NCBI GenBank assembly: GCA_948468385.1
Contig: CAOKHZ010000002.1
Location: 124,001 to 188,000 of the forward strand
From: an uncultured Faecalicatena sp.
GTDB lineage: Bacteria; Bacillota; Clostridia; Lachnospirales; Lachnospiraceae
DNA length: 64,000 bases
Reading direction: 5' to 3'
This document shows, piece after piece, positions 18,780 through 34,453 of this stretch. Position 1 is the stretch's first letter. Each line of letters opens with the position of its first letter. The notes below the pieces were generated by a model. That model had not been told where the DNA came from and did not search any database. It worked only from the letters and a program-made list of their open reading frames with translations. A program made the translations under genes and the position numbers.

Positions 18780-19033
18780 GCAAAGGAAGACGATGCCATT
18801 ACCATGTGCCGCTTTTGCATGTAGTGCGGCACGGGATTTTGTGCATTTTTCTTGAATGGCACGACACCGTTTTTCGTAGAAAATGTCCTTTGATTTTTAA
18901 ATGTGGAAAAAGTATAATATTACCTGGCAATTTAATCAGGCAAATTAACGACACATGTGGCGCACCGCGCGTAAATCTGATTACGGTACGGAAACTGCAG
19001 GTGTCTTTTTTTGCGCAAAATAAAGGAGGATTT

Positions 19034-21028
19034 ATGGAAAACAGTAATTATCTTGGTACGGAAAAAGTTGGGAAGCTGCTACGGCAGTTTGCAATCCCTT
19101 GCATCTGTTCCCTCATCATTTCATGTCTTTACAACATTGTAGACCAGATATTTGTGGGTAACGGCGTAGGGTATTTGGGCAACGCCGCCACTGGCGTAAT
19201 CTTTCCGATTACGGTAGTGGGATGGGGGCTGAGCTTGTTTTTTGGTGACGGGGCGGCCGCCGCGCTGAGTGTTTCTTTGGGGCGCGGGGAAACGAAGGAA
19301 ATTCATAGGAGCGTTGGCGGCGCGATCCTTGGGTCCTTTCTCTCCGGCGTGGTAGTGATTGCCATTGCCTATCTGTGGGGGGACGGCTTGTTGCTCCTCA
19401 TCGGTGCAACGGATGCCAATCTTAAGATGGCCCATGATTACGGCGTGATTATTTTCGCGATGATGCCGCTTGCCATGACGCAGAATACCCTGGCATCCAT
19501 TATCCGGGCGGATGGCAGTCCGAAATACGCCATGATGGCCATGCTCACCGGGGCGGTCATCAACATTATCGGTGATCCGGTGGCAATTTTCGCACTTGGC
19601 ATGGGAATCAAGGGCGCGGCTTGGGCCACTATCCTTGGACAGTTCGTCAGTTTCCTGATTTGTGCGGTGTATTTGGGGCGATCTAAGACTTTCCGGGTGA
19701 GCGCTTCCAGTTTTAGGCCAAGCATCGCGCTTTTGAAACCAGTAATGGCATTGGGGACTTCCAGCTTATTGACGCAGCTTTCCATCGTGGTCATTACGGT
19801 AGTCAATAATATCCTGCTGGTGAAGTATGGTGCCAAATCCCCTTATGGCGCGGATATTCCCTTGGCGGCGTTTGTAGTCATTATGAAACTCTTTCAAATC
19901 GTGTTGAATGTCGCCATTGGCATCGCCGCCGGCGCACAGCCGATTGTGGGCTATAATTATGGTGCAAAGAACTATGACCGGGTACGGGAACTGCTAAAGC
20001 TGATGATGAAGTGGACGGCCATTGTCGGACTGGTCTGCATGGTTTTGTTCGAAGCCGTTCCTGGCGTGTTCATCCGGATGTTTGGTTCGGCGGATGATCC
20101 CGTTTATTTCGATTTCGCCATACTCTGCCTGCGGATTTACCTTTCCTTTATCCTTGTTACTTGTGCCCAAAAGGTCTGCGCCATATTTCTGCAGTCCATC
20201 GGCAAGGCCAAGGCGGCCGCGCCTTTGTCTGTCCTGCGGGACGTGCTGCTGATTGTTTTTTCCTTACTGATTCCGCTCGTCATGGGTGTCACCGGCATTT
20301 TCTGGGCGTCACCGATTGCCGATGTACTGGCCATACTGGTTACGGCGGCGGTCATGATTCGGGTATGGAGAGAATTAAGTCATGGGACGAAGGCCGAAGA
20401 GCCCGTGGCAGCCATCTTGCCTTCCCGTCAGGGGGTAATCATCACGATTGCCAGGGAACACGGTTCCGCCGGAAAGCGGATTGGCCAGTTGGCGGCCGAA
20501 CGGCTGGGCATTCCCTGCTATTACAAGGAGCTGGTGGCGGTTGCCGCCCAGGAAAGCGGTCTGGCACAAGAATTTATTTCCGGCCTCAATTCCGATGAGA
20601 ATGCCGTTATGAGGGAACTGTACCTCACTGCCGACCCGGTGAAGCGCGCCGTCGCGGCGCAGGAAAAAGCCATCCGCCGGATTGCGGATGCCGGATCCTG
20701 CGTCATCATAGGGCGTTCGGCTGATTATGTGCTGCGGAACTATCAGGACGTGGTGCGCGTCTTTATCTATGCCCCCAAGAGTTACCGTGAGAAAAAGGTA
20801 ATGGAAATGTACGGGGACAGCCCGGAAGCCGCTAAAAAGAGCATTGCCCGGTCTGATGCGGCCAGAGGCGCCTATTACAAAAATGTTTCCGGGCAGGAAT
20901 GGGGCAATCCACATGGTTATGAACTGTGTATTGACGCATCGGTGGGCGAGGAGGCTGTTGCGGACTTAATATGCAGCTATGTCGGCCGGATGCCATCACA
21001 CCGTGCGGCCGAAGGCGGTGAAAAATAA
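19034..21028 (+). CDS. MATE transporter fused to a cytidylate-kinase-like domain
   Basis: A 664-residue fusion. Residues 1-455 form a 12-helix MATE/MOP exporter (GTEKVGKLLRQFAIPCI, NIVDQIFVGNGVG, IRADGSPKYAMMAMLTGAVINIIGDP). A short linker leads to residues 467-655, a P-loop kinase domain of the cytidylate-kinase-like family (VIITIAREHGSAGKRIGQLAAERLGIP, then CVIIGRSADYVL). The Walker A is the degenerate REHGSAGKR typical of that family. The start at 19034 follows AAAGGAGG; upstream open frame to 18806 is not MATE-like. The cytosolic domain may couple nucleotide binding to transport. The C-terminus is complete and a terminator follows. Confidence 0.88.
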   Translation: MENSNYLGTEKVGKLLRQFAIPCICSLIISCLYNIVDQIFVGNGVGYLGNAATGVIFPITVVGWGLSLFFGDGAAAALSVSLGRGETKEIHRSVGGAILGSFLSGVVVIAIAYLWGDGLLLLIGATDANLKMAHDYGVIIFAMMPLAMTQNTLASIIRADGSPKYAMMAMLTGAVINIIGDPVAIFALGMGIKGAAWATILGQFVSFLICAVYLGRSKTFRVSASSFRPSIALLKPVMALGTSSLLTQLSIVVITVVNNILLVKYGAKSPYGADIPLAAFVVIMKLFQIVLNVAIGIAAGAQPIVGYNYGAKNYDRVRELLKLMMKWTAIVGLVCMVLFEAVPGVFIRMFGSADDPVYFDFAILCLRIYLSFILVTCAQKVCAIFLQSIGKAKAAAPLSVLRDVLLIVFSLLIPLVMGVTGIFWASPIADVLAILVTAAVMIRVWRELSHGTKAEEPVAAILPSRQGVIITIAREHGSAGKRIGQLAAERLGIPCYYKELVAVAAQESGLAQEFISGLNSDENAVMRELYLTADPVKRAVAAQEKAIRRIADAGSCVIIGRSADYVLRNYQDVVRVFIYAPKSYREKKVMEMYGDSPEAAKKSIARSDAARGAYYKNVSGQEWGNPHGYELCIDASVGEEAVADLICSYVGRMPSHRAAEGGEK

Positions 21029-22077: not shown

Positions 22078-25000
22078 ATGGAATTATGCAAATATCCCAG
22101 GACGGGAAATGTCAGAACTTTTCATATTGAAGCGATACAGATTCCTATTGTATATAATCGATACGGAGACTATGACCCCGACGGCCTGCTCTATGTGCTT
22201 GAGGAGGACGCGGAAAGGATTAAAAGAGAGGCCATTCAAAGATTTGAGATGGATGTACCGCAGCCATATAAGGAAGTACGGCCGTTGGTAATCCGGGTCA
22301 ACTTGGGGGACACGGTGAAGGTTCGGTTCCGAAATTGCCTGGGCCGCCGACTGTCAATCCACGTACAAGGACTTTCTTATGATGTCAATACGTCGGACGG
22401 AAGCAGCGTAGGATACAATGACGACAGTACCACGAGCGGGGAAATCTGGTATACATGGTATGCCGATGCCGAGGGCGTGTACTTGTTTAATGACATGGCG
22501 GATTCCAGAAGCACCGAAGATGCAACGAACATTCATGGCTTGTTTGGCGCCATCATTGTAGAAGCGCCGGAGGCGAAGTGGTTTGATCCGGAAACGGGGG
22601 AAGAACTGGAAAGCGGACTAATGGCAGATATTTATCAGCCGGGACGGCCGGCTTTCAGGGAGTATAGTGTCTTTTTCCATGATGAGTTGGAAATCCTGAA
22701 TAAAGAGGGTAAACCGCCACTCGATCCTCATACTGGGCTTCCATCGTCAACAACGGCAATCAGCTACCGCTCCGAACCCATGCGGAACCGAATGCCGGAA
22801 ACACATGACCCGGCTGATTCTGCGGAGGACGTATCTATGAGTTCCTGGGTATACGGTGATCCGGCACCGCCAATTCTTTTCGCCTATGTCGGTGATCCGG
22901 TAAAGATACGGCTGCTTCATGGAGGAGTGAAGGAAACCCATGTTTTCCATCTTCACAATCATCAGTGGAGGTTGGAAAATGATAATCCGGTTTCAACGAT
23001 TCTGGATTCTGTCACCATCAGCCCGCAGGAATGTTATACGCTGGATATACTATATGGAGCGGGAAGCCTGAACGGGGTGATTGGGGACGTGATATTCCAT
23101 TGTCACCTCTATCCTCATTTTATGGACGGAATGTGGACTTTGTGGAGGATTTATGACCGGCTTCAGGACGGAACCGGGAAATTGCCTGACGAGACGCCCA
23201 TTCCTCCCCTTATGCCTTTGAAAGACAGGGAGCGTCCGCCAAAGAAAGACGAGATGCACCCGGGTTATCCGAACTTTATAGAGGGCAAGTTCGGGGAAAA
23301 GCCGTTGCAGCCGCCTCTTGGCGTGCTGCGGCCGAACGGGGGCGTGACCAATGAACCGACTCCGCTTGAGCGGGCCAATTTTGTAAACGACGCGGTGCCC
23401 GGCGCATTATATACGGATACATGTCCGTGCCATGCGGATGAAAACGTAAAAGTATTTGAGATTGCCATGGTGCAGGCAAAAATCACTTACAATCGTTATG
23501 GCTGGCATGATCCGCAGGGCCGCTTTTTCGTACTTAAGAAAGATTTGGAGCGTCATGGAGGGCTGGAATGTTATATACAAAAAGTGGAAAAACAAGAAAT
23601 AAAAGTGGAACCGTTGGTCATTCGTGCAAACGCTGGGGACTGCATTGAACTGCGGACTACGAACCTTTTGCCCGAATTTATCGAGGGCAGTCCGTTCCAG
23701 CCCAGAACAAGGACGGATATCGTGGGCCATCACCTGCATCTGGTAAAATTTGACACCATTGTCTCTGACGGGTCGGCCAACGGCTGGAATAACATTGCAG
23801 GGGCAAGACGGTATGAAACGTTGGTGGAACGGTTTTTTGCGAACGAAGAATTGCGGACGGTATTCTTTCATGACCATCTGTTCGCCAATGTTCACCAGCA
23901 GCATGGATTGTTTGGGGCGTTGATTATTGAAGAGGCGGGTGCGACGTTCCACGACCCGCAGAGTGGAAAAGAACTGCATTCGGGAACCCAGGCCGTCATC
24001 CGCAGAAGGAACGGTACCTCTTTCAGGGAATTTGCTTTGTTTGTTCATGATTTTGCGTTGTTGTTTGACAGAAAAGGCAATCCCCTAAATCCGCCCGAAG
24101 TGCCGGGGTCTCATGATGATCCAGGGGTCATGGGAATTAACTACAAGGCAGAACCGATGCGGGAGCGGCTTCGTAAAAAGGAGGATCCGGCATATCTTTT
24201 CAGTTCCTTCGTACACGGGGATCCGGCGACGCCGATTCTTGAAACCTATCCGGGTGATGAACTGATGATTCGTTTGATTGACGGGGCGCATGAGGAGCAG
24301 CATTCCCTTAACATCGCGGGAATGTCGTGGAGAAAGGAATTGGCGGATTTTAAATCGCCGCTTGCCGCTTCCCAGACGCTGGGAGTTTCGGAAGCGTTTA
24401 ATTTGAACGTGACGGAAAAATATGGTGCCGGGGACTATCTCTATTATTTCGGAGGAATCGATGACGCATGGCTTGGATTGTGGGGAATCATACGTGTGCA
24501 TAGAAGATATAGGAAGCACTTAAAACCATTATGCCAGGGGAAAAACATGATTCATCCGCTTACGCCTTGCCCGTCAAAAGAGGACGTGGTCAGGCATTAT
24601 GAGGTCGTGGCCGTGCAAAAGAAGCTGATTTACAACCGATATGGGGATCATGATCCGAACGGCCTGGTATTTGTTCCCCTGGAAGACGTAGACCGCGTGA
24701 TGTCTGGAAAGTGCATGCCCAAGCCGTTGATTCTCAGGGCAAATGTAGGAGACTGGATAGAGGTTATCCTGCACAATGCATGGAATCCGAAACATCCAAT
24801 TCCGTACTTCTCTTATCCGACGGTTCCTCTGGATAAAGAGTACACGCCGTCCATGAGGGTTTCTTTGAATCCGCAGTTTTTGCAATACGACCCGGTCTCT
24901 GATTCCGGCATTAACGTGGGGTATAATGAGATGGAGCAGACGGTAGGGGTTGGCGAGAGCAAACGTTATCTCTGGCACGCGGATCAAGAATACGGGGCTT

Positions 25001-25728
25001 GTATCATACAATCCTTTGGGGACATGCGAAATCATCGTTATCATGGATTGTTCGGAGCGGTGATCGTAGAACCGCCGGGCGCGGAATGGTATCGTAATTT
25101 TTCCAGAAAAAAGGACAGCTTTGCAGAGCAGGCGGTAATTACGGCGCCGGGGATGGAGAACTTTCGGGAATATGTCTTGTTTATCCAAAACGGAATTCGT
25201 TTGCTTGACGCAGAAGGCAATCTGATTCAGACCGCGGCGGCAGATAACGGGGAGCCGGTAGATGCGGAGGACACGGGAGAAAAAGGCTACAATTATCGTT
25301 CGGAGCGGTTTGCCAACCGGCTTGCGCGCGATTCCAGGACATGGAAAGTTTTCAGTAGCAAAGTGCATGGGGATCCGGCAACTCCGATATGGAAAGCGTA
25401 TCCCGGAGACAGGGTCATCTTTCGTACCATGATGCCCGCGGATAAACCCAGGAATACGTCCATTACGGTTCATGATCATATATGGAGGGAACAGCAGCGG
25501 GATCCGTTTTCCAGAATCATTCCTCTGCAAGGAGGAATCAGCATCGGCAATAGGTTCGACATAGAGCTTCAGGACGGCGCGAGATGTCCGGGAGATTACC
25601 TTTACCGCTCAGGCAGCTTTGCGTGGGACGTGGAATCGGGCATGTGGGGAATCTTCAGGGTTGTAAAACAGACGTTTGGCCATAGATGCAGGGGGATATA
25701 CAAGAAGATTCGAGAATGTCTTCGATAA
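22078..25728 (+). CDS. Giant six-cupredoxin multicopper oxidase
   Basis: A 1216-residue protein built from three tandem two-cupredoxin repeats, each opening with a YNRYG motif (residues 26, 471 and 852). Ligands of a complete copper set are visible: HxxHxH at 288-293 and HCH with C342, H347 and M352 in the second domain (type 1 plus part of the trinuclear site); HLH 552-554 and HDH 598-600 in the third domain. The third repeat keeps the fold but has lost most ligands. Size and domain number resemble the Mn(II) oxidase MnxG of Bacillus, but orthology is unproven. There is no signal peptide. It is coupled to the DUF2935 gene. Substrate unknown; metal or oxygen detoxification is an inference. 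Confidence 0.88.
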   Translation: MELCKYPRTGNVRTFHIEAIQIPIVYNRYGDYDPDGLLYVLEEDAERIKREAIQRFEMDVPQPYKEVRPLVIRVNLGDTVKVRFRNCLGRRLSIHVQGLSYDVNTSDGSSVGYNDDSTTSGEIWYTWYADAEGVYLFNDMADSRSTEDATNIHGLFGAIIVEAPEAKWFDPETGEELESGLMADIYQPGRPAFREYSVFFHDELEILNKEGKPPLDPHTGLPSSTTAISYRSEPMRNRMPETHDPADSAEDVSMSSWVYGDPAPPILFAYVGDPVKIRLLHGGVKETHVFHLHNHQWRLENDNPVSTILDSVTISPQECYTLDILYGAGSLNGVIGDVIFHCHLYPHFMDGMWTLWRIYDRLQDGTGKLPDETPIPPLMPLKDRERPPKKDEMHPGYPNFIEGKFGEKPLQPPLGVLRPNGGVTNEPTPLERANFVNDAVPGALYTDTCPCHADENVKVFEIAMVQAKITYNRYGWHDPQGRFFVLKKDLERHGGLECYIQKVEKQEIKVEPLVIRANAGDCIELRTTNLLPEFIEGSPFQPRTRTDIVGHHLHLVKFDTIVSDGSANGWNNIAGARRYETLVERFFANEELRTVFFHDHLFANVHQQHGLFGALIIEEAGATFHDPQSGKELHSGTQAVIRRRNGTSFREFALFVHDFALLFDRKGNPLNPPEVPGSHDDPGVMGINYKAEPMRERLRKKEDPAYLFSSFVHGDPATPILETYPGDELMIRLIDGAHEEQHSLNIAGMSWRKELADFKSPLAASQTLGVSEAFNLNVTEKYGAGDYLYYFGGIDDAWLGLWGIIRVHRRYRKHLKPLCQGKNMIHPLTPCPSKEDVVRHYEVVAVQKKLIYNRYGDHDPNGLVFVPLEDVDRVMSGKCMPKPLILRANVGDWIEVILHNAWNPKHPIPYFSYPTVPLDKEYTPSMRVSLNPQFLQYDPVSDSGINVGYNEMEQTVGVGESKRYLWHADQEYGACIIQSFGDMRNHRYHGLFGAVIVEPPGAEWYRNFSRKKDSFAEQAVITAPGMENFREYVLFIQNGIRLLDAEGNLIQTAAADNGEPVDAEDTGEKGYNYRSERFANRLARDSRTWKVFSSKVHGDPATPIWKAYPGDRVIFRTMMPADKPRNTSITVHDHIWREQQRDPFSRIIPLQGGISIGNRFDIELQDGARCPGDYLYRSGSFAWDVESGMWGIFRVVKQTFGHRCRGIYKKIRECLR

Positions 25729-26127: not shown

Positions 26128-26156
26128 TTGAAATTTGCCGACGTGTGTCCTATAAT
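26128..26156 (+). promoter_or_regulatory. Promoter of the GH106-like gene
   Basis: TTGAAA (26128-26133), 17 bases, TATAAT (26151-26156). The -35 is embedded in repeated TTTCAA/TTGAA elements (26114-26133) that could form an operator. Confidence 0.7.
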
Positions 26157-26196: not shown

Positions 26197-28884
26197 ATGA
26201 ATGAGAAGGTTCAAAGGCTATTGGGTGGAAAAGGGGGAAACTACATATTCCCGTTTTTCTGGCAGCATGGGGAGGAAGAGGGAGTCCTTCGCAAGTACAT
26301 GGAGGTCATTGAGAAGAGCAACATAGGAGCCGTTTGCGTGGAGAGCCGCCCGCACCCGGATTATTGCGGACCGGGCTGGTGGCATGACATGGACATTATC
26401 ATGGATGAGGCGAGAAAACGGGGGATGAAGGTGTGGATTCTGGACGACAGCCATTTCCCGACCGGGTTTGCCAACGGGGCGATGGCAGAGGCGGATCCGA
26501 AGCTGGCTAGAAAGAACATGGTGCACCAGGTCATTGAATGCGGCGGGGCGGGAAGCGAGATGCGGCTGAATCTGTCGGAGTACCAGGACGCGCCGGAGTG
26601 GCAGCTAAGCCAGATTGAGGCGATGATGTCTCAGGGAAAGAAGACGGAACTCTTGCCAGGAGACGAGATTATTTCCATTTCCTTGATTAGGGAAGGCGGC
26701 GACAAGGAAGCCGACATTATAGATTTGACGGGTGAGGCGGCGAAAGACGAGCTGGTGTTCACGGTTCCGGCCGAAGGGAAATGGAACCTCCATATCTGCC
26801 ACGCCACCAGGAACAGCGGCCCGCATCGCAATTATATCAACATGATGGATCATGATTCCTGCCGTGTGCAGATTGATGCCGTTTATGAGCCGCATTTCGC
26901 ACATTACGCGGATGACTTTGGCAAGACCCTGGCGGGATTTTTCTCGGACGAGCCGGAGCTTGGAAACGGCCACCTCTATGAGCAGCAAAAGCACGTAAGC
27001 GAGATGGATGACCTGCCGTGGAGCACGGAGCTTGGCGAGGCTTTGAAGGAAAAATGGGGCGAGAAGTACGCCGCTTACCTTCCGCTTGTATGGAGTGCGG
27101 ACTTTGACGAGAATTTGCTGTCGGGAATCCGACTTGATTATATGGACTGCGTAAGCCGTCTGGTGGAGAAGAATTTTTCCATGCAGCTCGGGGACTGGTG
27201 CCGTGAGCATGGCGTGGAGTACATCGGGCACGTCATCGAGGACAATAACCAGCACGCCCGCACGGGCACGAGCCTGGGACATTATTTCCGGGGATTATAC
27301 GGACAGGACATGGCGGGGATCGACGACATCGGCGGCCAGGTCATGCCGCAGGGCGAGGAAGACGGCGGCGTGGGTTCCTTTGGGGCAAAGAGAGAGGGCG
27401 GTTTCTTTCATTACGTGTTGGGGAAACTGGGCAGTTCGGCGGCATCCATCGAGCCACGCAAGAAAGGACGCGCCATGTGCGAGATTTTCGGCGCTTACGG
27501 TTGGGCCGAGGGAGTGCGTCTGGAAAAGTTTTTGGTGGATCATTTTCTTGTGCGGGGCATCAACCACTATGTGCCGCATGCGTTTAGCGCGATGCAGTTT
27601 CCGGATCCGGATTGTCCGCCGCATTTCTACGCGCACGGGCACAATCCGCAGTACCGCCATTTTGGCGCGTTGATGAAGTATTTGAACAATGTCTGCGAGT
27701 TGATGAATGACGGACATTGCGTGGCGCCGGCGGCGATGCTCTACATGGGCGAGGCCGAGTGGACGGGAGACTTCATGCTGATGCAGGAGCCGGCCAGGGC
27801 GCTTATGGACTCCCAGATTGATTTTGAGATTATACCGGCGGACGTATTTCCCGACAAGGCGGCATTTCGGACGGAAATTGGCAAGACGTTTACTGTCAAC
27901 GGGCAAGAGTACAAGGCATTTATCGTGCCGCGGACAAAGTTCCTATGCGAGGCGGCGGCCAGGGGAATCGACGAGCTGCTTGGTAGCGGCATTCCGGTGA
28001 TTTTCGTGGACGAGTTGCCAAAGGCCCTGGCAGGTGGAGGCGCGTTGCCGTTTGACGTGGAGAAATGCAAGGTGGTCGCGTTGGATAAGCTGGCAGAAGA
28101 ACTGTGCGCGATGAACCTGGCGGAAATTGGTATCACTCCGGCAAGTAGCTGGGTACATTACAGACATTATGAAAATGGTTCGCCCGTCTATATGTTCATT
28201 AATGAAGGGACAAAAACGTATAAGGGCGAAATTTGCGTGCCGCAGACCGGAAGCGTATATGCTTATAATGCGTGGGACAACCGTCTGGAATCCGTGGAGG
28301 CGAAGGCCGGTGATGGAAAGACCGTTCTTAAAGTGGAACTGGAACCGTTGCAGAGTTTGATTGTCGTGTTTGACGAGGCGGGGGACGATCTGGCCATACC
28401 GTTTGTAGTGCAGGTGAACACGGCGGGCATGGCGACGAAAGATTTCAGCGAGGGGTGGACGCGCAGTACGTGCACGAGTATTTCGTATCCGCAGTTTGAA
28501 CAGGCGAAACAAGTCAATCTGCCGGATTCTCTGGAAGCGGAAGAGCCGGAGTTTTCAGGATTCGTCCGCTATGAAAAGTCACTGCATGTAGACAAGTTGC
28601 CGAAGCGGATGATTTTGCAGATTTCCGACGCGTACGAAGGCGTGGAAGTATTTGTAAACGGAGTTAGCGCGGGCATTCAGGTCGTGCCGACGTATCGTTT
28701 TGACATTGCCCCGCTTTTAAAGGAGGGCGACAATGAAATCCGTATCGAGGTGGCGACGACGCTGGAGCGTTATGCGGCAAAGAACATTCCGAATCCGTAT
28801 GCGGCGATGTTGGGCGGCGTGCCGGATCCTACCGTGCCGTCGGGCATAAACGGGCGCGTGTATCTGATTGGGGACGAACTTTAA
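26197..28884 (+). CDS. Large cytoplasmic glycosidase, GH106-like
   Basis: An 895-residue protein resembling GH106 alpha-L-rhamnosidases and related uncharacterised hydrolases with jelly-roll domains. The N-terminal barrel has GAVCVESRPHPDYCGPGWWHDMD, VWILDDSHFPTGFANG and the acidic loop FFSDEPELGNG. Later come HVIEDNNQHARTG and NHYVPHAFSAMQFPDPDCPP. The C-terminal ~150 residues form a carbohydrate-binding-like beta-sandwich (VEVFVNGVSAG, then GDNEIRIEV). There is no signal peptide, so it would act on imported glycan fragments. It has its own promoter and a GGAGG site. Family assignment is by motif memory and substrate is not certain. Confidence 0.7.
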   Translation: MNEKVQRLLGGKGGNYIFPFFWQHGEEEGVLRKYMEVIEKSNIGAVCVESRPHPDYCGPGWWHDMDIIMDEARKRGMKVWILDDSHFPTGFANGAMAEADPKLARKNMVHQVIECGGAGSEMRLNLSEYQDAPEWQLSQIEAMMSQGKKTELLPGDEIISISLIREGGDKEADIIDLTGEAAKDELVFTVPAEGKWNLHICHATRNSGPHRNYINMMDHDSCRVQIDAVYEPHFAHYADDFGKTLAGFFSDEPELGNGHLYEQQKHVSEMDDLPWSTELGEALKEKWGEKYAAYLPLVWSADFDENLLSGIRLDYMDCVSRLVEKNFSMQLGDWCREHGVEYIGHVIEDNNQHARTGTSLGHYFRGLYGQDMAGIDDIGGQVMPQGEEDGGVGSFGAKREGGFFHYVLGKLGSSAASIEPRKKGRAMCEIFGAYGWAEGVRLEKFLVDHFLVRGINHYVPHAFSAMQFPDPDCPPHFYAHGHNPQYRHFGALMKYLNNVCELMNDGHCVAPAAMLYMGEAEWTGDFMLMQEPARALMDSQIDFEIIPADVFPDKAAFRTEIGKTFTVNGQEYKAFIVPRTKFLCEAAARGIDELLGSGIPVIFVDELPKALAGGGALPFDVEKCKVVALDKLAEELCAMNLAEIGITPASSWVHYRHYENGSPVYMFINEGTKTYKGEICVPQTGSVYAYNAWDNRLESVEAKAGDGKTVLKVELEPLQSLIVVFDEAGDDLAIPFVVQVNTAGMATKDFSEGWTRSTCTSISYPQFEQAKQVNLPDSLEAEEPEFSGFVRYEKSLHVDKLPKRMILQISDAYEGVEVFVNGVSAGIQVVPTYRFDIAPLLKEGDNEIRIEVATTLERYAAKNIPNPYAAMLGGVPDPTVPSGINGRVYLIGDEL

Positions 28885-28938: not shown

Positions 28939-30171
28939 ATGGAACCGGACATTTTGCAGGGAAAGGCAGGAAGGGAGACGTTACAGAAACGGCAGGATCG
29001 CCTGGTCAGTTTCTTTGACGCGATCGTGGCGGTGGGAATCACGATGATCGTGATGGGAATCGCGTTGCCGGAAGCAAGCATGGAGCCGTGGGAGTTGGTC
29101 GCTTACATTGGCTCCGAAGTGACCGTGTACCTCGTGAGTTTCATTGCTCTGGCGGAGTTGTGGCGTGTGCACCATGCGATTTTTACCCATTTTGAGGGCG
29201 TGGCGGCCGAGGAAGTGACAAACGTGCATATCGCCTTGATGTTTTTCGTGACGATTTTCCCGTTCCTGACCCGTTTTATGAACGCATACCAAAACGTCAT
29301 GGAAATCCGCGTACTTTATGTCAGCAGTTACGTGGTCATGAATTCTTTGATGGTGCTGATTGTCTATCTGGCGAATAGAAGGTACGTACAAAATCAGCTG
29401 GAGAAAGAGGACAAGATAAAGAAATGGATTCCTCTGATGCTTGCCGGGGGGGGAAGCGAGGGCGGTCTTGATGGCAAGATGGGCGAATTTACAAAATATT
29501 CTGCCATGTTCGAGAAGGGGAATTTTTCCGGGAAACAAGTGGACAAGGAGAATGCGTTTATTTTGGACGATGGATTGAAAGAGAGCTTGAAAGCGATGGG
29601 CGTCTGGGAGGAGGAAGATCCAAACCTTAAGAAGGCCGGGAGCATTCAGGCAATGATTTCCATATCGTTCAACTTTGTCAGCGTGACGTTGTCCGTCATT
29701 TTGTTGATGGTGAACCCGTTATTTTGTTATATCGTGTTTTTGGCGAAATTCGTGTTGGAGGCGATTGGCAAAAGAATCGTGGAAATCGTGCTGATGCCGT
29801 CACAAAGTGGGCAGGTTTCGCTAGAGGAGAAGCAGGCTTTGACCGCGTCTGCGCAGATTCCGCCTGGTGTTGGCCGGGGGGCTGAAACGGTACCGCTTTC
29901 GAAAGACTGGATGGAATTATTGAAGGAAGAACGAAGGCGAAGGGAACAAGAGCGCAGGCGGGTGTCGGAGCGCATGCAGAAGGAGCGCGAGGACGCGCGC
30001 AGGGCAAGGGAGAGAATGCATACCGAACGCGAAAGGGCGAAAGAGGATTCCAAAAGGACAAGGGAAGACCGCGGCAAGGCACAAAAAAAGCAGGGCGTAC
30101 AAGAAACGGCGCACGAGTGCAAGGACAATGACGATATGCGGGGGAAGGGACAAGGCTGTGGCAGAGGATAA
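28939..30171 (+). CDS. TMEM175-like membrane protein with coiled-coil tail
   Basis: A 410-residue protein. The first helix carries a variant of the TMEM175 (DUF1211) channel signature RxxxFSD, here RLVSFFD (residues 21-27), followed by AIVAVGITMIVM. Four helices fill residues ~25-150. A polar insertion of ~80 residues precedes two more helices (ISISFNFVSVTLSVILLM and PLFCYIVFLAKFV). The last ~100 residues are a highly charged Arg/Glu/Lys coiled coil. TMEM175 proteins are tetrameric potassium channels; the Ser-to-Phe change and the long tail are unusual. The start at 28939 is chosen for the family motif that follows. It overlaps the kinase gene, so the two are coupled. Confidence 0.78.
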   Translation: MEPDILQGKAGRETLQKRQDRLVSFFDAIVAVGITMIVMGIALPEASMEPWELVAYIGSEVTVYLVSFIALAELWRVHHAIFTHFEGVAAEEVTNVHIALMFFVTIFPFLTRFMNAYQNVMEIRVLYVSSYVVMNSLMVLIVYLANRRYVQNQLEKEDKIKKWIPLMLAGGGSEGGLDGKMGEFTKYSAMFEKGNFSGKQVDKENAFILDDGLKESLKAMGVWEEEDPNLKKAGSIQAMISISFNFVSVTLSVILLMVNPLFCYIVFLAKFVLEAIGKRIVEIVLMPSQSGQVSLEEKQALTASAQIPPGVGRGAETVPLSKDWMELLKEERRRREQERRRVSERMQKEREDARRARERMHTERERAKEDSKRTREDRGKAQKKQGVQETAHECKDNDDMRGKGQGCGRG

Positions 30172-31900
30172 GGATTATAATGTAAGCGGTGACGAATACG
30201 AGGACGAGAACGAATACGAATACGAGGACGAGAACGAAAACGGGCGCGGGTACGAAAACGAGGATGAGTATGGTAACCAGGATGGGGACAAGTCTGACGA
30301 GATTGCACGTCTTTTGAAAGAGAACCGCAAGCTGCAAGAAGCGCTCGGCGACGCGAAGTCAGCCAGCAAGGCGAAGGACGTGTTTCTCTCGAACATGTCC
30401 CATGATATCCGTACGCCCATGAACGCGATCATGGGAATGACCACCATCGCTTTGTCGCATATTGACGAGAGGAACCGCGTCATGGATTGCCTGAGCAAGA
30501 TACAGACGGCCTCGTCCCACCTGATGAGCCTGATTAACGACGTGTTGGACATGTCCCACATTGAGAGCGGGAAAATGACGATTCATAAGGAGCCGTTCTC
30601 GTTGCCGGACGTTTTTCATGACGTGGTGGTCATCGTGCGGCCGCAGGCAGAGCAGAAAAAGCAGACGCTCAAATTTGAAATCGAGGATATTCGTGAGGAA
30701 GAGCTTGTAGGCGACGCGCTTCGGATCAGGCAAGTCTTGGTCAACATCATTGGAAATGCCGTAAAATATACGCAGGCGGGTGGTGACATCCACGTCATTT
30801 TACGGCAGCTTCCGGGAGGGACGAAAGAAGAGTCCGTTTTTGAGTTTGTATGCCAGGACAATGGGATGGGCATGAGCGAGGAATTTCTCGCCCGCGTATT
30901 TTTACCGTTCGAGCGGGCAGGAAACACCACCCAGAGCAAGATCGAGGGAACGGGTCTGGGCCTTGCAATTTGCCACCGTCTGGTGGAACAGATGGGCGGG
31001 GCGATTCGGGTGGAGAGCCGCCTCAGGGAAGGGTCTCGTTTTACGGTGTCGATTCCGTTTAAGGGTCAGAACGCGCATGAGAATCAAAAATATTTCTCTG
31101 GCGAGACGGTGTTGGTGGTGGAGGATGACGAGGGTCAGGCGAAGAAAATTTCGGGATATTTGCAAGATGGCGGCTTGAAGCCGCAAGTCATCGGCAAGAG
31201 CGTGGACGCGGTGACGTTTCTTACGGAGGCGCTTTACGAAGGAAAGTGTCCCCTTGCCGTCTTGTTAGGCGAAAACATGGGCGGGGCGTACGCACTTGAC
31301 GTGGCGGCTTGTCTGCGCCAGATTGCCGGCAAGGGACTTCCAATCCTTCTCGTGTCGGAGGTGGATTGGCCTCAGATGGAATATCGGGCGGCTCGTGCCG
31401 GAATAAATGGCTTTGTTCCGTGTCCATTGTTTCGCAGCCGGCTGCTTTCTGCCATTCGCAGATTCGCGGCAGATGGAGGCCAGGATTCCGCCAGTGGCAT
31501 GGAAGGGGCAGATTATAGTGGAAAACGTTTCTTGCTTGCGGAAGACAACCTGCTCAATCAGGAAATTGCCATCGAACTGCTCTCTGACATGGGAATCACC
31601 ATCGAGGCGGCCGACAATGGTGAGGAGGCGGTAAAGATGTTCACGGCATCCAAGCCTGGCTATTATGACTTGATTTTGATGGACATTCAGATGCCGGTGA
31701 TGGACGGTTACGAGGCGACCCGCCGTATTCGTGCCTTGGATCGCGAGGACGCCAGGGACATCTGCATCGTGGCCATGACGGCGAACGTGTTCGCGGAGGA
31801 TGTCAGGCGGTCTCGTAGGGCGGGAATGAATTTTCATCTTGCCAAGCCCATAGACGTCAAGAAAATTGAGGAAGTGTTGCAAAAACAAGGATTTTCATGA
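30158..31900 (+). CDS. Hybrid histidine kinase lacking a sensor domain
   Basis: A 580-residue soluble kinase. After an acidic Asp/Glu/Asn/Tyr-rich low-complexity lead (about 45 residues) and a short coiled coil come the HisKA domain with phospho-acceptor H82 (SNMSHDIRTPMN) and the HATPase domain (IIGNAVKYT, CQDNGMGM, GTGLGLAIC). A first receiver domain has VLVVEDDEGQ but lacks the acceptor Asp (LLGENMGG). A second receiver has a canonical acceptor, D509 (LMDIQMPVMDG). No transmembrane, PAS or GAF sensor is present. A GTG at 30158 preceded by GGAAGGG is chosen; ATG 30128 is possible. It overlaps both neighbours or nearly so, so signal input may come from the TMEM175-like protein. Confidence 0.85.
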   Translation: MAEDKDYNVSGDEYEDENEYEYEDENENGRGYENEDEYGNQDGDKSDEIARLLKENRKLQEALGDAKSASKAKDVFLSNMSHDIRTPMNAIMGMTTIALSHIDERNRVMDCLSKIQTASSHLMSLINDVLDMSHIESGKMTIHKEPFSLPDVFHDVVVIVRPQAEQKKQTLKFEIEDIREEELVGDALRIRQVLVNIIGNAVKYTQAGGDIHVILRQLPGGTKEESVFEFVCQDNGMGMSEEFLARVFLPFERAGNTTQSKIEGTGLGLAICHRLVEQMGGAIRVESRLREGSRFTVSIPFKGQNAHENQKYFSGETVLVVEDDEGQAKKISGYLQDGGLKPQVIGKSVDAVTFLTEALYEGKCPLAVLLGENMGGAYALDVAACLRQIAGKGLPILLVSEVDWPQMEYRAARAGINGFVPCPLFRSRLLSAIRRFAADGGQDSASGMEGADYSGKRFLLAEDNLLNQEIAIELLSDMGITIEAADNGEEAVKMFTASKPGYYDLILMDIQMPVMDGYEATRRIRALDREDARDICIVAMTANVFAEDVRRSRRAGMNFHLAKPIDVKKIEEVLQKQGFS

Positions 31901-31983
31901 TTTTTGCCGGCAACGGCAGAAGCGGAGCGTGGAATTGCCACGGCGACCATGGCAAAAAAACTGTGCGGGAGGGGGGAGTGCGC

Positions 31984-33873
31984 ATGCAGTCCTATCAAAA
32001 GGAGTATGTTGAAAATTTACGTTCCGTTGCCGAACTGACGGCGGTTAGGCCTGTGGAAGGCATGTCGTTTACATCATGGTATCGGAACCTGCAAACAAAT
32101 TGGGCGCAAGCCGCGAAAATATGTGTTCGCAGCATGGAAATTCTACGTACTGAGTTTCGCCAGACGATTGACAATCTTTTTTCCGAGGGCGGAGAAGACC
32201 TCGAAGGGTTGGAGGAATTTGCCGCCGCCTTGGTTTGCAACGGGGATTATCTGGATTCAGGTCTCTACTGTACCATCCATCAGGCACTTTTAAGCTTTTA
32301 TCGTACGAGGAAGATGCGTGACGGCATCATCCGCGAACTCTATTTCAAGGGGATGGGGCTATACTCCCAGACGAAGATGCTGTTTGGCATAGATCATCCG
32401 GTGTTGGATGCCTTTGACCAGCGTTTTCGCATGTGTTTTGCAGAGGCAGGGGCATATCGGAAGTATTTTGACGAGATTGAGTCCGAGGAGACGAAGGGAT
32501 ACATTATTCGTGCCATGGCGAACGTGTCTCTGGGACGGTTTCAGAATAAAAGCGATAAGATTGCCATCGTCCGCCGTACCATCCAGGTTTTGAGTGACGA
32601 TTGGTATAAAGAACTTGCGCCGGGGCTTCCCTGGGATCGTTTTTTGTACCTGACCCATCAGCAGATGGTTTCCGGGCGTGCTTTGTTTTGCACGGATTTT
32701 ACACCACAGGATTTGGCCGACTTGATGGAATCGAGCCATGTTCTCTATAACGAGCAGTTAGAGAGCGTCGAGCGGGATGGCGGCAAGCCGAATCCGCGCT
32801 TTTTCTGGCCTTATTGTGAAATGGAGTACATGTGTGGCCTGACGACGATTCAGGAAATGCTGGGCAAGCTGGAGATGCTGATTGAGCAGGCGAGCGAGGA
32901 CGACCAGTCCGTTGACGGCATGTACGCGCAGATTACGTTGCCGATGACCTATTGCAGCATTTTGGAAGAATTCGCGGATGAAGATTTTATGAATCGAAGC
33001 TTTGCGAATCAACACTTCACGGGGAGGGACTTGATTTGGAATAAGAGGGAATATTTGCAAAGGCTGAACGAGCGGGCATTTTGGTATGTCGGCGGTCTGC
33101 CGGCAGATCAGGGTCACGCCTTTTATCTGAACCAGTTCATTTCTGCTTACATCGAGTTGGACGGTTGTCCGCCGTATGATCAGGTGCTTCTTACGGTACT
33201 TGGCAAGTGCACCCCGGACATTTACGTGCGTTCATGGATGATAGCCAAGGTGGCCGTGGCCATTTGTGAGACGGTGATGGAGGACGAGCCGCAGATTTTT
33301 GACGGCGTTCCGGCAGTGGCAAATGCGTGTGGCGTAGATGCCAAGCGAACGGCCGCGTTGCAATTCGTTCAAAAGGGCGGGATGCTTCATGATGTGGGCA
33401 TTCTTCCTTTTTACCATATACATTCGATTCGCAATCGCGAGTTGTTTCAGGAGGAACTGGAGCTGTTGCGGCTGCATACGTGCGTGGGGTGGGAAATGTT
33501 GAAAAAACGAAAATCCACGCGGGAGTACGCGGATTTGGCCTTGGGACATCATGCCTGGTACAATGGCGCGAAAGGGTATCCGGACGAGTACAAGCGCAGG
33601 GAGAGTCCGTGCCGTTGCGTGGTGGACCTCATTACCCTTGCGTCCTTTCTGACTCGGGAAATGGACTCGGACGGATTGTTCTACCGAACGGACGGCATGT
33701 TCGACGAGGCCATAGCCGAAGCCGTGCGGGAAGAGGGGCACAGGTTTTACCCGCCGCTCACCGTGAGCCTGCAGAATATGGAATTACAAAAGAAATTACG
33801 GGAAATTTTTCGGAATGGCGTGAAGGAGGCGTGCCGACGGCTTTATGATGGGAAATATGGTATAGATGAATAA
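31984..33873 (+). CDS. Divergent HD-GYP-like protein
   Basis: A 629-residue protein. The first ~430 residues are helical and unrecognised, with TPR-like periodicity in places. The C-terminal ~180 residues resemble an HD-GYP domain: HD at 469-470 (GGMLHDVGIL), the LRLHTCVGWEML helix, HH at 522-523 and GYP at 531-533 (GHHAWYNGAKGYP). Relative to canonical HD-GYP phosphodiesterases the HDxGK lysine and the first helix His are missing, so activity on cyclic di-GMP is uncertain. The start at 31984 has GGGGGAG five bases away; an ATG overlapping the kinase stop at 31897 (ATGA) would add 29 atypical residues. It is the probable output of the upstream kinase. Confidence 0.8.
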   Translation: MQSYQKEYVENLRSVAELTAVRPVEGMSFTSWYRNLQTNWAQAAKICVRSMEILRTEFRQTIDNLFSEGGEDLEGLEEFAAALVCNGDYLDSGLYCTIHQALLSFYRTRKMRDGIIRELYFKGMGLYSQTKMLFGIDHPVLDAFDQRFRMCFAEAGAYRKYFDEIESEETKGYIIRAMANVSLGRFQNKSDKIAIVRRTIQVLSDDWYKELAPGLPWDRFLYLTHQQMVSGRALFCTDFTPQDLADLMESSHVLYNEQLESVERDGGKPNPRFFWPYCEMEYMCGLTTIQEMLGKLEMLIEQASEDDQSVDGMYAQITLPMTYCSILEEFADEDFMNRSFANQHFTGRDLIWNKREYLQRLNERAFWYVGGLPADQGHAFYLNQFISAYIELDGCPPYDQVLLTVLGKCTPDIYVRSWMIAKVAVAICETVMEDEPQIFDGVPAVANACGVDAKRTAALQFVQKGGMLHDVGILPFYHIHSIRNRELFQEELELLRLHTCVGWEMLKKRKSTREYADLALGHHAWYNGAKGYPDEYKRRESPCRCVVDLITLASFLTREMDSDGLFYRTDGMFDEAIAEAVREEGHRFYPPLTVSLQNMELQKKLREIFRNGVKEACRRLYDGKYGIDE

Positions 33874-33881
33874 AAAAGTAG

Positions 33882-34360
33882 CGTTTCACCATCTTGCTGG
33901 CCAGGTTGTCCACCGTGGAGACCATGCTGTCAATACGCCTGCCGCTCTGCCATTCCACCAGGTCGTCGACGTTGTTGTGGTTGGTGTTGAACATGATGAA
34001 CGCGACCGTCACGCCGATTGCGAAGGTGATGGTGTTGAGATAAATGGCACCGGTCGAGTAGGGGGCGAGGATGAACCAAATCTTGCCCACGATCATGATG
34101 GCGGCGCTGAAAATCATCATGTTCCTGCGGCCGAGCATCTTGTCGAGCGGCACGGTCAGGATGGTGGCGACGATGGCGACAATCAGGTAGACCGCCATGA
34201 TGATCGTGGCGGCACCCGTACTGCCCATGATGTAGGTCGCATAGTAATTGATGGTGCTCATGATCAGCATGTTGATCACGCCGTAGCAGATGATGTAAAG
34301 CATGTTGAACACTCAGGAGCGGCAGCCGAACAAGATCTTCACGATCTTTAGGAAAGGTAC
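33882..34360 (-). pseudogene. Fragment of a GPH/MFS sugar symporter
   Basis: Minus-strand remnant of a glycoside-pentoside-hexuronide family transporter. It encodes IICYGVINMLIMSTINYYATY, two more hydrophobic segments and the loop NVDDLVEWQSGRRIDSMV. An in-frame TGA interrupts it near 34314; upstream, VPFLKIVKILFGCRS continues the same homology. The C-terminus is cut off after ASKMVKR, where sequence joins the 3' end of the HD-GYP-like gene. About two thirds of the transporter is missing. Confidence 0.75.
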
Positions 34361-34453
34361 GTGCAGCCGATTATTGACGGCGTGGAGAGCGGATATATCG
34401 AGGAGGCGAGATTAAGAAGGAACGTGTGCAGGATACTGGAAGCGGTACTGTAA
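34352..34453 (+). pseudogene. C-terminal fragment of a GH3 beta-glucosidase
   Basis: An open stretch ending at TAA 34451-34453 encodes VQPIIDGVESGYIEEARL, then RNVCRILEAVL. This is the usual C-terminal end of clostridial GH3 enzymes. Nothing of the upstream ~700 residues is present. It abuts the inverted symporter fragment, so both are likely debris of a lost sugar-use locus. Confidence 0.55.

Follow-up and report, generated by a model that had tools for sequence, protein, structure and literature searches.

Hybrid histidine kinases with a dedicated HD-GYP partner are represented by RpfC/RpfG of Xanthomonas, in which RpfG has a receiver of its own. A degenerate HD-GYP protein is said to take part in a nitric oxide (NO)-sensing system, and the hybrid kinase SgmT is reportedly a receptor of cyclic di-GMP (c-di-GMP). 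Analysis of a 64,000-nucleotide stretch from an uncultured Faecalicatena sp. (the window; contig CAOKHZ010000002.1, positions 124,001 to 188,000, part of a 4.25 Mb genome) revealed a locus that can be compared with these systems. Three co-directional genes on the plus strand (28939..33873) encode a TMEM175-family membrane protein (gene A), a hybrid histidine kinase (gene B), and a protein with a degenerate HD-GYP domain (gene C). The locus resembles RpfC/RpfG in having a hybrid histidine kinase with a dedicated HD-GYP partner. The nearest precedent for a dead partner is HnoK/HnoD of the Shewanella NO-sensing network, likewise a kinase system with a degenerate HD-GYP partner; the available text of PMC6335343 describes HnoD as lacking phosphodiesterase activity and acting by protein interaction. 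The same text presents HnoD as a response regulator holding back the EAL enzyme HnoB, whereas no receiver was matched in gene C and its kinase is a hybrid with a pseudo-receiver. At a probability of about 0.62, we read the locus as a conserved two-protein module in which a soluble hybrid kinase works with a non-catalytic HD-GYP protein dedicated to it; in this genus a membrane protein of the TMEM175 type has joined the module, probably as its input.

The distribution of gene C relatives carries this reading. In a pattern-based contig scan covering 84,980 species, 11 relatives of gene C were recovered, with the kinase directly upstream in 11 of 11 and a TMEM175 gene in 1 of 11 (L051, same genus). 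Both patterns came from the N-terminus of paired proteins and favour the paired clade; an order search with the whole gene C profile (E up to 1e-30) served as a check. This search of 392 genomes gave 17 places in 15 genomes, namely the window, two pairs (G450 and G505), and 14 unpaired copies, and the only other copies with a degenerate site were the two adjoining a kinase. Among 150 family genomes, full-length relatives in G075 and G114 each lay behind the kinase, without gene A. Altogether, 14 distinct pair loci were obtained, the pair occurring in some gut Firmicutes, and gene A was present in two of them, both from this genus. When the 13 pair loci outside the window were searched with the TMEM175 profile, only L051 gave a match; one of these loci, L056, shows just 82 bases 5' of its kinase. 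The paired HD proteins formed a single clade with 100/100 support in a tree of 14 paired and 24 unpaired full-length rows. The kinase and HD distance matrices were correlated (r 0.976 over 12 pairs, with 0 of 5000 permutations as high), although shared species history inflates this correlation. The linkage of kinase and HD protein that had been predicted from the window was thus found at all 14 pair loci, and a functional pair is well supported by these comparisons.

Relatives were counted as unpaired when no match to this kinase lay directly 5' within the available stretch. The first 12 are 12 of the 14 places taken from the family search, which comprise all those listed down to 8.9e-16; the remaining two were pairs. 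Among the 26 unpaired relatives, adjacency could not be judged for L036, which starts at a contig end, or for L116, with 235 bases upstream. Kinase-like matches lie 2 to 3 kb away on the other strand in L119 and L121, with a receiver-like match at 0.3 kb in L121 as well, and a receiver-type gene (L120:3259-4209, assigned by eye) lies 263 nucleotides 5' of an HD relative with an intact active site. In L038 (7767-11453), which falls outside the paired clade, the HD region and HisKA-HATPase-REC are contained in one polypeptide, with Phe in place of H221. Other fusions were also seen: an unpaired HD relative is joined to an M32 carboxypeptidase (L035:4730-8131), and two are joined to GNAT acetyltransferases (L034:7022-9337 and L037:5853-8186).

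Profile comparison matched the gene C domain to the HD-GYP domain of PmGH (PDB entry 4mcw) at 6.8e-08. Residues were assigned by alignment to PmGH and with the metal-ligand assignments in the available text of PMC4159591. Gene C and PmGH have in common the HD pair, H250, the HH pair, and the GYP loop. They differ in that gene C has lost four site residues and has a region of about 400 N-terminal residues, with no Pfam domain above cut-off, where PmGH has a GAF domain. The original prediction had recognized an HD-GYP domain without the HDxGK lysine; gene C indeed has HDVGI at this position, and H189, D305, and D308 proved to be lost too. The counterparts of H189, K225, D305, and D308 were each found in 0 of 12 paired members and in 12 of 12 unpaired members from the family search. 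The order search added two paired copies without all four and 14 unpaired copies with all four, giving totals of 14/14 paired members that lost the complete set and 26/26 counted unpaired members that kept it. Of the remaining signature, 12 paired members retained H221 in 11 cases, D222 in 7, H250 in 11, H276 in 11, H277 in 11, and the Tyr in 11. The loss is most simply explained as one event that was then kept, since the paired members form one clade.

According to the available text of PMC4159591, the exchanges H189A, K225A, and D308A essentially abolished PmGH activity and D305A reduced it markedly; H189 and D305 are metal ligands, and D308 is supporting. RpfG, an active phosphodiesterase according to the same text, is unlike gene C, which carries no receiver and from which K225, D305, and D308 are missing as well. 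A role of gene C as an active c-di-GMP phosphodiesterase was rejected because residues whose exchange abolished or strongly lowered PmGH activity are missing from every pair member. Hydrolysis of c-di-GMP by gene C is not expected and is contradicted by the sequence, and the predicted output by c-di-GMP cleavage was not upheld. The ratio of nonsynonymous to synonymous substitution rates (dN/dS) for gene C residues 401-629, window versus sister species, was 0.15, indicating purifying selection; together with the retained HD, H250, HH, and GYP residues, this suggests that the fold is still used. The HD partner is most likely a non-catalytic HD-GYP pseudoenzyme. The genome contains five GGDEF matches above cut-off, so c-di-GMP is possible as a ligand.

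Besides the inflation of the matrix correlation, several points weigh against this reading. The 14 paired members are not independent, as the catalytic losses are most simply one inherited event; a Fisher test was set aside because all paired members fall into a single clade. A missing H189 is no proof by itself, as RpfG is active despite lacking the E185 and H189 ligands. PmGH D305A retains some activity (both in the available text of PMC4159591). The fused L038 protein keeps H189, K225, D305, and D308, so association with a kinase is not always accompanied by their loss. The link between gene A and the kinase in the two TMEM175-bearing loci consists of adjacency and a short overlap. Finally, gene C may have its own promoter, as one of two weak promoter-like sites (9/12) within gene B, at 31839-31866, lies shortly before it.

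Analysis of gene B agreed with the predicted hybrid kinase without a sensor, having one dead and one live receiver: Pfam detected HisKA, HATPase, and two REC domains, and no recognised sensor domain or Hpt match. The protein has the HisKA histidine, the HATPase, and a receiver with both Asp and Lys that mark a hybrid histidine kinase (Table 1). Comparison of the window with the sister species gave a dN/dS of 0.12 for REC1 (purifying) and 0.03 for REC2 (strongly purifying). The part in front of the kinase core is variable, with 41 to 182 residues ahead of the HisKA histidine in 12 members. In L061:7941-9995, a NUDIX domain, a nucleotide-hydrolase fold, is fused to the kinase of the pair at the sensor position (Pfam 7.1e-16). 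L057-L060 have 143 to 152 residues ahead of the kinase that are PAS-like by eye, and L058, the one of these that was scanned, gave no Pfam match in its N-terminal stretch. No Pfam match was obtained in the shorter N-terminal stretches of L054 and L055. The kinases of the window and of L051 have a low-complexity N-terminal stretch and a membrane gene upstream.

The N-terminal region of gene C might be an Hpt-like acceptor for REC2 that uses H99, with the dead HD domain as a remnant or effector. A live REC2 in a kinase with no Hpt match speaks for this reading. H99 was found in 11 of 12 paired versus 1 of 12 unpaired members of the first set, but Arg takes its place in L060 and L115, and in the second set His occurs at this position in 8 of 14 unpaired members. 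The residue is not fixed within the paired clade and was dropped as a candidate acceptor. Neither gene C nor its relatives matched Hpt in Pfam, and no Response_reg match was obtained in gene C or 12 scanned pair members. The HD region is under purifying selection, and three Hpt domains are encoded elsewhere in the genome, outside the locus. We consider an Hpt-like role of gene C highly improbable.

The gene A product had been predicted to be a six-helix TMEM175-like protein with RLVSFFD and an insertion, and this was confirmed. It scored 51.3 bits against PF06736 (curated cut-off 25), phmmer matched TMEM175 (PDB entry 6w8n) at 1.3e-07 as well as bacterial TMEM175 structures, and hydropathy was consistent with six helices, of which TM5 and TM6 (transmembrane helices 5 and 6) fuse into one segment. 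RLVSFFD stands where the family has RxxxFSD, with FFD at the FSD motif. Five other family members have FTD (three), FSD (one), or LFD (one) at this position, and by this alignment FFD is a variant and not a unique change. The insertion of about 90 residues (approximately 148-236) lies between TM4 and TM5; L092 has a shorter one. Residues R21, D27, A31, T35, W75, and H78 were invariant in all eight aligned members. Assigned by motif spacing, they are the counterparts of MtTMEM175 Arg24, Asp30, Ala34, Thr38, Trp74, and His77, which act in assembly and selectivity, Thr38 being a selectivity residue (available text of PMC7176437). Gene A thus shares with TMEM175 channels the helix-1 Arg, Asp, Ala, and Thr and the helix-2 Trp and His, with T35 corresponding to Thr38, and departs from MtTMEM175 and PF06736 in FFD for FSD, in the insertion, and in a tail of about 110 residues. 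An ion pore in gene A is plausible because the assembly and selectivity residues of MtTMEM175 are invariant in these members.

The C-terminal tail had been described as a charged coiled coil of about 100 residues. Its high charge is evident, and the coiled coil is uncertain: the heptad score was reached by 5, 15, and (L051) 363 of 2000 shuffles, so that the pattern exceeded shuffles in two of three orthologues, and a firm coiled coil was not accepted. Among three measured parts of gene A, the tail showed the weakest constraint (dN/dS 0.32; others 0.13 and 0.15). A long charged tail is absent from the five other aligned members, one of them (L088) ending in a short charged stretch. Electrostatic docking of a basic gene A tail on an acidic kinase N-terminus was also considered and rejected. 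The window kinase has 26 D+E and 10 K+R in 80 N-terminal residues, but the stretch is nearly neutral in the sister (18 and 16 in 86).

Whether gene A belongs to the conserved unit was examined in its own genus. A search of 12 genomes found gene A in three (the window, G155, and G157) and gene C in three (the window, G155, and G160, where the copy is interrupted by the contig end). G155 is the sister species, whose locus L051 (Lachnospiraceae bacterium isolate A96_90.MI.DSS, contig CAJTDN010000003.1) belongs to the nearest named relative that shares the locus. There the order A-B-C is kept, the same GH106-like gene precedes the three genes, a convergent MFS gene follows them, and genes A and B overlap. 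The dN/dS values between the two species were 0.24, 0.10, and 0.12 for genes A, B, and C. With three genes recurring in order and low dN/dS, the arrangement is more than chance. In G157 (L049:2339-3415), a tailed gene A is flanked by a GH35-like gene on one side and a lipoprotein-like gene on the other, with no adjoining pair; the lipoprotein-like product was judged by eye to be of the solute-binding type and had no Pfam match. The queries used on the G157 genome (69% complete) were gene A, gene C, and the GH106-like gene, and no gene C match was obtained at 1e-15. The search for kinases there covered the 5.1-kb gene A contig, which stops 1.7 kb beyond gene A and contained no kinase-like match. 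PF06736 is rare, occurring in 8 of 299 family-sample genomes and 3 of 299 phylum-sample genomes, with the window counted in both. Six other TMEM175 loci of 12 kb had no match to this kinase at 1e-3; in L091 the TMEM175 gene was not read, an overlapping opposite-strand frame having been taken instead. At L089:3386-5936, a TMEM175-family gene lies directly behind a SpoIIE-type phosphatase gene.

These data bear on two further explanations. In the first, which corresponds to the original prediction, the three genes form an obligate system in which TMEM175 senses ions or voltage and its coiled coil relays the signal to the kinase, with c-di-GMP cleavage by an active HD-GYP protein as the output. 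The same genes, order, and A/B overlap in the sister, a candidate operon promoter upstream with no plus-strand promoter-like site listed in the gap before gene A, and the kept pore residues agree with this. TMEM175 is nevertheless missing from 12 of the 14 pair loci, gene A occurs without an adjoining pair in G157 and keeps its tail there, the tail is less constrained than the other measured parts of gene A, and the HD catalytic residues are lost, so that an obligate three-part system is quite unlikely. The finding that would speak against it, relatives occurring mostly apart, applies to the TMEM175 gene and not to the kinase-HD pair. In the second explanation, gene A is an independent passenger of a sugar-utilisation locus, an ordinary K+ channel that merely shares an operon with the pair. 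Its GH35-like and lipoprotein-like neighbours in G157, its place behind the GH106-like gene in the window and in L051, the rarity of PF06736, and the absence of this kinase from six other TMEM175 loci are in line with a passenger. Both species, however, retain the overlap with the kinase, five other aligned members do not have the long charged tail, and the separation in G157 was observed in an incomplete genome near a contig end. We regard a passenger as doubtful but possible. On the sequence evidence, the best-supported conserved unit is the kinase-HD pair with a variable input end, rather than three genes, and the TMEM175 gene is most likely a genus-level optional input, through which ions might be sensed.

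Gene starts were chosen from Shine-Dalgarno-like sequences, the sister species, and a shared N-terminal motif. The three genes had been said to overlap or nearly touch. Genes A and B do overlap, by 44 nucleotides if the kinase starts at ATG 30128 (longest open reading frame) and by 14 at the likelier GTG 30158, which is preceded by GGGGAAGGG and matched by an ATG codon in the sister. An overlap of B and C is not needed: the longest gene C frame begins at 31897, and the preferred ATG 31984, preceded by GGAGGGGGGAG, leaves an 83-nucleotide gap. An M-x-x-Y-Q motif, located at ATG 31984 in the window, is common to 12 aligned gene C members at or near their start. The GH106-like gene, with an equally placed orthologue in L051, is probably the first gene of the transcription unit, and a four-gene operon with genes A, B, and C is likely. 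The promoter-like sequence in front of it (Table 1) has a counterpart, TTGAAA-17-TATAAT, at the equivalent place in L051, as read by eye. The promoter scan, which found 12 sites versus 6.7 expected, listed no plus-strand site in the 54-nucleotide gap before gene A.

Table 1. Positions in the window of the locus features and the evidence for each.
Feature	Position	Strand	Evidence or remark
Promoter-like TTGAAA-17-TATAAT	26128..26156	+	11/12 consensus matches; 5' of GH106-like gene; candidate four-gene operon promoter
GH106-like (alpha-L-rhamnosidase-like) glycoside hydrolase	26197..28884	+	Pfam PF17132 1.2e-06, slightly below cut-off
Gene A, TMEM175-family membrane protein, 410 amino acids	28939..30171	+	PF06736 1.7e-13; insertion and charged C-terminal tail
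Charged tail of gene A	29914..30111	+	Approximately residues 326-391; composition and heptad test; tail shared by L051/L048 and L049
Gene B, soluble hybrid histidine kinase HisKA-HATPase-REC1(dead)-REC2(live)	30158..31900	+	Pfam; longest open reading frame from 30128
HisKA histidine of gene B	30401-30403	+	Key residue, 14/14 members
REC1 pseudo-receiver	31109..31483	+	Acceptor Asp and Lys absent in 14/14 members
REC2 intact receiver	31529..31885	+	Acceptor Asp and Lys present in 14/14 members
Gene C, ~400-residue N-terminal region and degenerate HD-GYP domain	31984..33873	+	Pfam HD 6.2e-06; PmGH match
Predicted pseudo-HD-GYP domain	33208..33768	+	H189 to R, K225 to I, D305 to S, D308 to T (PmGH numbering)

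Other features were seen near the locus. An MFS_2 sugar transporter remnant on the minus strand (33761-34384) ends beside the gene C 3' end; 165 of its residues were aligned and are 84% identical to the 480-residue L051 copy. Farther upstream, one 740-residue frame (18806-21028) contains a MatE transporter and a cytidylate-kinase-like domain, and a 1216-residue protein (22078-25728) with multicopper-oxidase matches and, by eye, several repeats adjoins a DUF2935 protein.

In the proposed two-protein module, the kinase would autophosphorylate on the HisKA histidine and pass the phosphate to REC2, which has the necessary residues, while REC1 would serve as a structural pseudo-receiver. By analogy with HnoD, the pseudo-HD protein would read or set the kinase state through binding rather than hydrolysis, and it may still bind a nucleotide through its retained His/Asp residues and GYP loop. 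The kinase N-terminus would be an exchangeable input end, with NUDIX in one member and uncharacterised stretches in others; here the input would be the low-complexity stretch plus the separately encoded, overlapping TMEM175-like gene. A more far-reaching proposal is that a K+ channel of the TMEM175 type came to serve as the detachable membrane sensor of a cytosolic hybrid kinase. Ion flux, pH, or membrane potential would alter the conformation of the TMEM175 tetramer, the charged tail would shift the kinase N-termini, and the signal would go to an HD-GYP pseudoenzyme rather than to a DNA-binding regulator, the core being a general cassette for lineage-specific inputs (NUDIX, cytosolic stretches, or a channel). 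We put this forward tentatively and consider it rather unlikely. As judged from titles and abstract openings, no paper on a pairing of kinase and dead HD-GYP protein in this group, or on a TMEM175-kinase system, was found in the open-licence part of PMC, a coverage that makes the absence weak.

The kinase-linked degenerate clade beside its intact relatives provides a clean natural series for the role of HD-GYP proteins after the loss of catalysis. The pair also appears to combine a single kinase core with exchangeable inputs, among them a nucleotide-pyrophosphatase fold and a channel-family neighbour. Should the link to TMEM175 be true, the locus would represent a two-component system of bacteria that an ion channel gates.

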